Of a stretch of DNA of 42,145 nt, positions 9,837 to 11,971 are shown piece by piece. A model generated the notes under the pieces. It made no database searches. It was not told the origin of the DNA and saw only the letters and a program-made list of their open reading frames with translations. The DNA is taken from assembly GCA_947491315.1 (NCBI GenBank), contig CANLII010000021.1, positions 1 through 42,145 on the forward strand. Direction: 5' to 3'. Source of the DNA: Ignavibacteria bacterium. Its GTDB lineage: Bacteria > Bacteroidota > Ignavibacteria > Kapaibacteriales > UBA961. Position numbers and translations under genes: made by a program. Positions within the stretch are counted from its first letter, which is position 1; every line of letters begins with the position of its first letter.

Positions 9837-10220
9837 ATGCCAACTATTACTTCATTGGATCCACGCATAACTCGTGCGAGTATCCCGGCAGAGCAAGAAC
9901 AACCATTTGAACCAAAAGAAACTATGGATCAGTTTCAAACTTTTGAGGTTTTTGTTCAAAGCAAAACTGGCGGTCATCACGCGCATGCTGGATCTGTCCA
10001 TGCTCCAACACCCGAAATGGCGATGTCCTATGCAAAAGAGCAATATGGTCGCAGAGGCCAAACCTTGAATATCTGGATTGTAGAGACATCGAATATTCAT
10101 GTGCTTGATCAATCTGATTCTGATTTCTTTGAAACAGTGCCTGATAAAGGATATAGAGAAGTTGCGGCTTATGCTAAGATTCGTGATAAAGTGGAAGCAT
10201 TCAAAAAGAGTCAGAGTTAA
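9837..10220 (+). CDS. Orphan PaaB-like protein (phenylacetyl-CoA epoxidase subunit B family)
   Basis: Residues ~32-100 match the PaaB fold pattern: QTFEVFVQSKTGGHHAHAGS, then VHAPTPEMAMSYAKEQYGRR, then LNIWIVETSNIHV, compared with the canonical YEVFVRxKxGxxHxHVGSLHA...A...Y.RR...SIWVV. In the phenylacetate pathway PaaB is a small non-catalytic subunit of the PaaABCE oxygenase. Here no paaA, paaC, paaD, paaE or paaK lies nearby. A ~30-residue Pro/Glu-rich N-terminal extension precedes the domain, and the C-terminus is basic. The gene ends 2 bases before dnaX, so the two are almost certainly co-transcribed. Family assignment is by motif memory; the function outside an oxygenase complex is unknown. 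Confidence 0.8.
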   Translation: MPTITSLDPRITRASIPAEQEQPFEPKETMDQFQTFEVFVQSKTGGHHAHAGSVHAPTPEMAMSYAKEQYGRRGQTLNIWIVETSNIHVLDQSDSDFFETVPDKGYREVAAYAKIRDKVEAFKKSQS

Positions 10221-10222
10221 TC

Positions 10223-11971
10223 ATGTCTGCAAATGCACGCAATAAACACTATGTGGTAACTGCCAGAAAATGGCGTCCGATGACTTTTGCCGAAGTTGTT
10301 GGTCAAGATCATATTGCAACAACATTGCGCAATGCCATGCTCAGCGGAAGAGTGCATCATGCATATTTGTTCACGGGTCCACGCGGAGTGGGTAAAACCA
10401 CTTCTGCAAGAATCGTGGCAAAGGCATTGAATTGTTTGAATCCGGGTCCTGATGCCGAACCATGTAATGCTTGTGCATCATGCAATGACATCATGGATGG
10501 GAGATCGATCGATGTAATTGAGATCGATGGTGCTTCAAATAATAGTGTGGATGATGTTCGCAAGCTCAGGGAAAATTCTCGTTATCCGCCGGTTCATGGA
10601 AAGTATAAACTCTATATTATTGATGAAGTGCATATGTTGTCAACATCGGCATTCAATGCGCTTCTTAAGACACTTGAAGAACCGCCACCGCATTTGATGT
10701 TCATCTTTGCAACTACGGAAGTGCATAAAGTTCCGGCCACGATTCTTTCAAGATGTCAACGATTTGATTTTCGTAGAATGGAAATCGAAAGCATCGTCGG
10801 TCAACTGAGAAAAATTGCAAGTGGAGAAGGTGTTTCTATAGATGATGAATCGCTGATTGCCATCGCAAGAAAAGCGGATGGTTCAATGCGTGATTCTCAG
10901 AGTATTTTTGATCAAGTCCGCGCATTTTGCGGCAATATCATCATTGCAGCTGATGTGCATGATGCATTGCATTTGATTGATACCGAATTTTTCTTCCGCA
11001 TTAGTCTTGCGATACGCGAGAAAAATGTTGCCGAGATGTTTGCCATCGCTCATGATGTAATTGTAAAGGGATATGATATTCAAGAATGTTTGAATGGTCT
11101 TTTGGAACATTTCAGAAATATCCTTTCCGTGCAAGCGACCGGTTCTACTTCGCTCATTGAATCGAGTGCGAATTTTCTCCTGAAATATGAGAAAGAGGCT
11201 TTGTATTTTTCACAGGCTGAAATTCTGAGACTCATGCATATTGTAACTACTACGGAACAGGGTTTGCGTTTTGCCGCACAGCCAGGTGTAAGACTCGAAC
11301 TTGCACTCACGCAAATGGCCTCCTTGGATTCGATTGTAGAGATTTCAGAAGTGATACAATCGCTTCGTGATAAATCAGGTTTTGAACCAAAACCAATCAT
11401 TACCCCTGAAAAAAAAACTCCTGAGCTGATCAATCCTCCAATTGTAGCGGAAAAGCCACAAGAAATTATCAAAGAAGAAGTCCCTCAAATTGTAGAAGAA
11501 GTAATCAAGACTCCTGAAACTCAACCATTGACTTCTGATATCCTCAATCGCTGGGAAGAATTCATTGAATCAACTTCTGCAATCCTACAATTTGCATTGC
11601 ATACAGCGGAGGCACGCATTGAGGAGAGTGTATTATACATTCATGCAGGTCAAAATTTTACATTTGAACAATTGCAATCGAATATCGAGACATTGAAAAA
11701 ATCTTTGAATGCATTCTATGGTATCGATATTTCCGTGCAATTGAGATCAGGGAAAGATGCATCCGGGGAACAAGGAAAGAAATCATATTTTGATAGCATA
11801 GAAAGAGTTCAGGGTAATAACAAATCCGGTGGACTCGACTTCATTTCATCCGCACCATCACACATGGAACAAATGGAATTGAATAAACCAAAAGTCCAAC
11901 AAAGAGAATTAAGCGAAGTTGAACAAACATTGATTTCAACATTCGGTGCAAGAGAATTGCCGAAGAGATAA
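10223..11971 (+). CDS. dnaX: DNA polymerase III subunit gamma/tau
   Basis: DnaX is the clamp-loader ATPase. The 582-residue tau form shows ARKWRPMTFAEVVGQ, Walker A GPRGVGKT (residues 52-59), four zinc cysteines C71, C81, C84 and C87, Walker B YIIDEVH, the SRC motif in ATILSRCQRFDF, and a sensor segment FIFATTE. After about residue 385 comes a Pro/Glu/Lys-rich linker and a tau-specific C-terminal region. At the domain boundary a run of nine A (11409-11417, codons 396-399) is followed by stops in the -1 frame (TGA 11422) and +1 frame (TGA 11427). This would give a ~400-residue gamma form if slippage occurs. The gene starts 2 bases after the PaaB-like gene. Confidence 0.97.
   Translation: MSANARNKHYVVTARKWRPMTFAEVVGQDHIATTLRNAMLSGRVHHAYLFTGPRGVGKTTSARIVAKALNCLNPGPDAEPCNACASCNDIMDGRSIDVIEIDGASNNSVDDVRKLRENSRYPPVHGKYKLYIIDEVHMLSTSAFNALLKTLEEPPPHLMFIFATTEVHKVPATILSRCQRFDFRRMEIESIVGQLRKIASGEGVSIDDESLIAIARKADGSMRDSQSIFDQVRAFCGNIIIAADVHDALHLIDTEFFFRISLAIREKNVAEMFAIAHDVIVKGYDIQECLNGLLEHFRNILSVQATGSTSLIESSANFLLKYEKEALYFSQAEILRLMHIVTTTEQGLRFAAQPGVRLELALTQMASLDSIVEISEVIQSLRDKSGFEPKPIITPEKKTPELINPPIVAEKPQEIIKEEVPQIVEEVIKTPETQPLTSDILNRWEEFIESTSAILQFALHTAEARIEESVLYIHAGQNFTFEQLQSNIETLKKSLNAFYGIDISVQLRSGKDASGEQGKKSYFDSIERVQGNNKSGGLDFISSAPSHMEQMELNKPKVQQRELSEVEQTLISTFGARELPKR
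11409..11417 (+). other. A9 slippery run inside dnaX with near stops in both shifted frames
   Basis: The frame reads GAA AAA AAA ACT. A -1 shift or an inserted A gives AAC TCC TGA; a +1 shift or lost A gives CTC CTG AGC TGA. The run lies between the ATPase/oligomerisation domains and the tau-only region, the position where gamma is made in E. coli (frameshift) and Thermus (transcriptional slippage on A9). No upstream Shine-Dalgarno stimulator or downstream hairpin is evident, which favours transcriptional slippage. Confidence 0.6.

Follow-up and report, generated by a model that had tools for sequence, protein, structure and literature searches.

The dnaX gene of an Ignavibacteria bacterium carries a run of nine A's (A9) at the boundary between the region shared by the clamp-loader subunits tau and gamma and the region confined to tau. 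Comparison with relatives across the phylum Bacteroidota shows that such runs are conserved at this boundary far beyond chance. The run is probably a programmed slippage site, at which slippage by RNA polymerase would yield both tau and gamma from a single gene.

The dnaX gene and its A9 run

The window, i.e., the whole stretch of DNA analysed (42,145 nucleotides of contig CANLII010000021.1), contains a 582-codon dnaX ORF at 10223-11971 on the forward strand, in which a continuous tau frame runs straight through the A9 run. Its translation is a tau of 582 aa (computed mass 65.0 kDa) with Pfam matches to DNA_pol3_delta2 (residues 28-186), DNAX_ATPase_lid (191-237) and DNA_pol3_gamma3 (242-380), and a match to TIGR02397 of 450 bits, above the cut-off. 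The features of the locus are as follows:

10223..11971 (+), dnaX, tau form, clamp-loader subunit of DNA polymerase III (ORF, Pfam, TIGR02397)
10223..11362 (+), ATPase, lid and oligomerisation domain III (residues 1-380), common to tau and the predicted gamma (Pfam)
11409..11417 (+), A9 run, predicted transcriptional slippage site (sequence; A9-A11 in 108/195 relatives)
11422..11424 (+), TGA reached with one extra A (-1 frame), end of the predicted 400-aa gamma (sequence, translation, relatives)
11427..11429 (+), TGA reached with one missing A (+1 frame), end of the predicted 401-aa gamma (sequence, translation, relatives)
11417..11968 (+), tau-only region, linker plus C-terminal part (zero frame 3' of the run)

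The run lies within codons 396-399 (GAA AAA AAA ACT), 15 codons beyond the end of domain III (PF12169) at residue 380. With one A added, the predicted product ends ..EKK-NS-stop (400 aa, 44.5 kDa); with one A lost, it ends ..EKK-LLS-stop (401 aa, 44.6 kDa). Since domain III ends at residue 380, both predicted truncations retain the entire shared part. No Shine-Dalgarno (SD)-like motif was found in the 20 nt upstream of the run, and the 60 nt downstream showed no structure (fold z +0.63). These results bear out an earlier note on this DNA, which had placed the run at exactly these positions and at the boundary of the core and the tau-only region, with a TGA after two codons in the -1 frame and after three in the +1 frame, had proposed a gamma of about 400 residues from either direction of slippage, and had seen neither an SD stimulator nor a downstream hairpin. 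An upstream hairpin, GGTTTTGAACCAAAACC (z -1.99), was dropped and is not claimed here because it is not kept in the close relative L099. An Rfam search of the window returned a tRNA as the sole match. A PaaB-family (PF06243) ORF, unexpected next to dnaX, occupies 9837-10220 (+); only two bases separate its end from the start codon of dnaX, and the two genes are therefore probably co-transcribed.

In the mechanism that we propose, RNA polymerase would slip at the A9 run while making some of the dnaX transcripts, adding or dropping A's. Transcripts whose run had gained or lost a number of A's other than a multiple of three would meet a stop two to three codons later and would be translated into a gamma of about 400 residues, comprising the ATPase plus the oligomerisation domain; those with nine (or 6 or 12) A's would give tau. 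We infer that such slippage takes place in the source organism, that it is chiefly transcriptional, and that gamma would be a working clamp-loader subunit.

Conservation of the run and of the flanking stops

The single instance in the window proves nothing without comparison, because synonymous shuffles of this gene alone yield a run of at least nine A's in 37% of rounds. We gathered dnaX genes at the level of the order and of the phylum, together with those of a named genome set; deduplication left 195 phylum genes and 24 from other phyla. We then defined a boundary zone of 80 codons, from 20 before to 60 after residue 375. Runs of A9-A11 were found in this zone in 108 of the 195 phylum genes, all within the span from -8 to +41 codons relative to residue 375, whereas synonymous-codon shuffles lead one to expect 35.4 such genes (sd 4.6, maximum 48, 300 rounds); among the genes from other phyla only 1 of 24 has a run. 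In all, 109 A9-A11 runs fall in the 46.8 kb of the zone, none in the 206 kb of upstream core and 4 in the 83.6 kb of tail, the density of runs of at least nine A's being 2.33, 0 and 0.05 per kb, respectively. They are also present in genes of 60-65% GC, and so are not explained by AT content alone. In 87 of the 195 genes there is no such run, which implies that its function is dispensable. On the DnaX tree the run appears or disappears 34 times, whereas shuffled labels give 73 changes on average, indicating that the trait is inherited, yet often lost or regained.

The lengths and phases of these runs are also distinctive. At the boundary the length distribution has two modes and steps up at nine A's (A7 17, A8 6, A9 43, A10 61, A11 5), whereas in the core (A7 39, A8 5, A9 0) and the tail the counts merely decay. 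All three codon phases are used (19, 46 and 44 runs in phases 0, 1 and 2), and the heptamer A_AAA_AAA lies within every run of at least nine A's, whatever its phase. A reversed arrangement is seen in 15 relatives, where the zero frame codes for gamma and tau lies in the -1 frame; a further gene, L328, has A12 with tau in the +1 frame. Downstream structure shows a weak mean excess over the 108 genes (z -0.41), and SD-like motifs occur upstream in 25 of 93 genes versus 13% of control 20-mers, a weak excess that possibly reflects composition.

The stops in the other two frames were analysed in the 93 phylum genes with tau in frame, using codon shuffles of the same downstream sequence as the control. 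The -1 stop falls at a median of 1 codon after the run (6 in the shuffles) and the +1 stop at a median of 3 (12 in the shuffles), with both lying within 5 codons in 69 of the 93 genes; the shuffles give 10.6 such genes on average and 19 at most. For A7-A8 runs elsewhere in dnaX the corresponding medians are 5 and 14. As stops come far earlier than in the shuffles in both other frames, selection acts on both.

Closer to the window, every one of the five same-genus dnaX genes whose linker is complete has a run of A9 or A10, and both of the other frames close within 1-4 codons of it. Three of them (L097, L098 and L099; core identity 98-90%) retain ACCCCTGAAAAAAAAACTCCTGA, and the other two (L100 and L101; 81%) have A10 followed by the same CTCCTGA; in these two the linker around the run has diverged beyond alignment, while the run and CTCCTGA stay. 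The +1 stop is kept with other letters, being TGA in the window and TAA in L098 and L099. Across the genus the run is A9 in four genomes and A10 with an adjusted frame in two, and tau is always in frame. Elsewhere in the window's family, A9 stands at a different place in two members of a single genus, and the remaining members beyond the window's genus have no A9 at the boundary; the run is missing in four members of this family and in 19 of 19 deduplicated members of one family in the same order.

A runs in the window and the genome

The dnaX run is the sole A9 in the window. The A8 runs elsewhere in the window, which the earlier note had entered as a caution, are indeed there, and at chance level (7 matches; shuffle mean 7.2). 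Counting both strands, the 2.30-Mb genome has 53 runs of exactly nine A's, plus 8 distinct longer runs. Their distribution was studied in 842 kb of the genome, sampled in stretches partly picked to include A9 sites and with ORFs called mechanically. Runs of at least nine A's or T's number 25 in the 83 kb between ORFs versus 12 within ORFs, which make up 759 kb. Counts of A4 to A8 runs on the ORF sense strand are 3858, 1387, 483, 157 and 49, each extra base cutting the count to about a third; extrapolating this decay predicts about 25 runs of at least nine A's, against 8 seen, a depletion that is if anything understated because the sample was partly picked to include A9 sites. Baranov et al. 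explain the depletion of long runs on coding strands by selection against slippage, transcriptional or replicative (PMC1088944), and by that argument the depletion found here agrees with A9 slipping, as expected, although replication slippage can also account for it. Among the 12 ORF runs, only 2 are followed within five codons by stops in both other frames: that of dnaX and one at codon 7 of a small ORF.

Comparison with known dnaX systems and alternative explanations

The closest parallel is dnaX of Thermus thermophilus, for which transcriptional slippage was reported by Larsen et al. 2000, as related in PMC1088944 and PMC5009743. As far as those accounts describe it, the window shares its features: at least nine sense-strand A's, a single continuous zero frame for tau, near stops in both other frames (here 11422-11424 and 11427-11429), and a gamma expected from transcripts of other lengths, the slippage being predicted from sequence in our case. 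The window differs in its phylum and in the place of the run, which lies about two thirds of the way along the gene, compared with seven eighths in Thermus. Antonov et al. 2013 (PMC3711429) described a reversed two-ORF dnaX in Chlorobium and Chloroherpeton (Chlorobi) and others. It has a poly-A run at the same gamma/tau boundary, and 15 relatives of the window have this form; there, however, gamma is in the zero frame and tau arises by the slip, whereas in the window tau is in the zero frame and gamma would arise by the predicted slip. In E. coli dnaX, as summarized in the recoding review PMC5009743, gamma results from -1 ribosomal frameshifting on A_AAA_AAG with SD and hairpin stimulators. 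Judged against that summary, early termination at the same boundary is shared, as a prediction in the window, where the -1 stop is near; unlike in E. coli, the window has A_AAA_AAA followed by ACT in place of the AAG heptamer, no SD-like motif or downstream hairpin, and a longer run with a phase that is free among relatives. Apart from PMC3711429, a search conducted mostly outside the subscription literature returned no paper joining dnaX, transcriptional slippage and Bacteroidetes. Thus, slippage of the Thermus-like kind is already known, and the phylum-wide extent of the form with tau in frame appears undescribed.

Ribosomal -1 frameshifting on the A_AAA_AAA within the run, in the manner of A_AAA_AAG in E. 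coli, would likewise produce a gamma (..EKKNS), and several observations fit it: the window has the heptamer in frame, as does every run of at least nine A's, the nearest stops are those of the -1 frame (median 1 codon), and poly-A cassettes frameshift in E. coli to an extent that rises with length (7 A 10%, 9 A 40%, 11 A 63%; PMC3711429). We nevertheless consider it unlikely as the main cause, though it may contribute, and rank transcriptional slippage above it. A7 and A8 runs in the right phase should suffice for the ribosome, but they form no boundary peak; the step at nine favours RNA polymerase, being expected if a long RNA-DNA hybrid has to slip, whereas the ribosomal heptamer needs only seven bases. 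The use of all three codon phases also favours the polymerase, as do the selected stops in both other frames, a +1 stop being of no need to -1 frameshifting. The same is true of the reversed relatives, which open both ways (15 in -1, L328 in +1), a varying direction of the slip being the criterion of Antonov et al. for transcriptional realignment (PMC3711429), and of the window site itself, which has no SD-like motif or downstream hairpin; among relatives the SD-like excess is weak (25/93 vs 13%).

That the run has no function and arose by accident, the linker being rich in lysine and the genome in AT, is quite improbable: the frequency with which shuffles of the window gene generate such a run (37%) and the many relatives without one are as it would predict, but it accounts poorly for 108 genes against 35 expected, for the zero count in the core, for runs at 60-65% GC and for the selected stops of both other frames. 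A chance origin was accordingly rejected on position, synonymous shuffles and stop distances. Least credible is that the run is a contingency site, at which DNA changes would switch tau off in part of the population. Long A runs are mutable in replication too (PMC1088944, PMC3711429), but the lengths within the genus are steady (A9 in four, A10 in two) and tau is always in frame. Moreover, in well-studied bacteria dnaX has an essential housekeeping role, unlike phase-variable surface genes.

Polymerase slippage at the A9 thus remains the preferred reading. The earlier note had proposed both a Thermus-like route and the making of tau and gamma. The route gains support from the step at nine, the three phases, the selected stops and the bidirectional openings of the reversed relatives. 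The two products are favoured by the comparative evidence, i.e., the 108 of 195 relatives and the stops beyond chance. That note had counted AAG codons breaking the run in relatives against itself and had suggested looking there for a conserved run with near stops: the run is intact in 5 of 5 same-genus genes, and A9-A11 recurs in 108 of 195 in the phylum.

An in-frame UAG at the same boundary in one Bacteroidales family

Three Bacteroidales or Bacteroidetes genomes (L052, L068 and L092) have a TAG precisely at the boundary that closes the dnaX zero frame; beyond it, that frame stays open for another 189-254 codons and leads into a normal tau tail. A search of the family gave 117 genomes with a match, roughly half of which list a TAG inside the dnaX match; several '1 TAG' matches at the order level turned out not to be boundary stops. 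In all 28 loci read the stop is TAG, never TAA or TGA, followed by ATWGC and AG. The conserved element, recorded for L068 (L291), L052 (L292), L092 (L293), L343-L354, L356, L359-L369, L371 and L401, is TAGATWGCNAG (UAGAUWGCNAG in RNA), followed by a small GC hairpin. This hairpin starts 10-11 nt past the TAG in 26 of the 28 loci versus 14% of control windows, a descriptive figure since the criterion was set after seeing the sequences, and its stem letters vary by subgroup (CGCC/GGCG, GCC/GGC, GTCC/GGGC). The tau tails past the TAG align with those of sister genomes without it. A repeat-element origin was discarded, as TAGATWGCAAGR occurs 0-2 times per genome, mostly at dnaX; reassignment of UAG in this family is unlikely, as TAG is the terminal stop of 6 of the 28 tau ORFs; and an Rfam search of the element gave no credible match.

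Programmed UAG readthrough is possible as the simplest reading of this element. It would be a readthrough-like route of dnaX recoding, none of which was found in the literature searched, and may be the newer of the findings; the 2016 recoding review, as far as consulted, names frameshifting, slippage and proteolysis as ways to gamma and mentions no UAG route (PMC5009743). In two sisters of the UAG family (L396 and L400), tau lies in the +1 frame after the TAG, with the related sequence TAGGCYTAGCTAG..CGCCAMAAGCG, which suggests frameshift or bypass at the element there rather than plain readthrough. Other genomes of the same Bacteroidales family (L384-L394, L397-L399) have a reversed dnaX with A9-A11, several reading GGCTGAAAAAAAAACTCC then TAA, near the window's CCCTGAAAAAAAAACTCCTGA, by descent or convergence. 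In L395 the zero frame ends in TAA and tau is in the +1 frame with no homopolymer run; this is either another shift-requiring form or an assembly error. In L063 (Bacteroidaceae), a G7 followed by CGTAG lies at the dnaX boundary, around codon 371, where one extra G would meet the TAG; G-run slippage is possible there. The UAG finding has no bearing on whether the window's A9 slips, but it shows the boundary to be a recoding hot spot. We lean slightly towards viewing the gamma/tau choice in the phylum as a replaceable recoding module, filled by an A run with tau in frame, an A run with gamma in frame or, in one Bacteroidales family, an in-frame UAG element.

Implications

These observations would turn what was a Thermus oddity into a widespread, repeatedly lost feature of Bacteroidota and their relatives. 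The disputed need for gamma thereby becomes testable by comparing the lineages that keep the site, reverse it or drop it. The UAG form in one Bacteroidales family would, if real, add another way of obtaining tau and gamma. The survey also singles out organisms in which slippage of RNA polymerase at A9 is to be expected, and a second, unannotated protein is probably encoded by many dnaX genes that consist of a single ORF.
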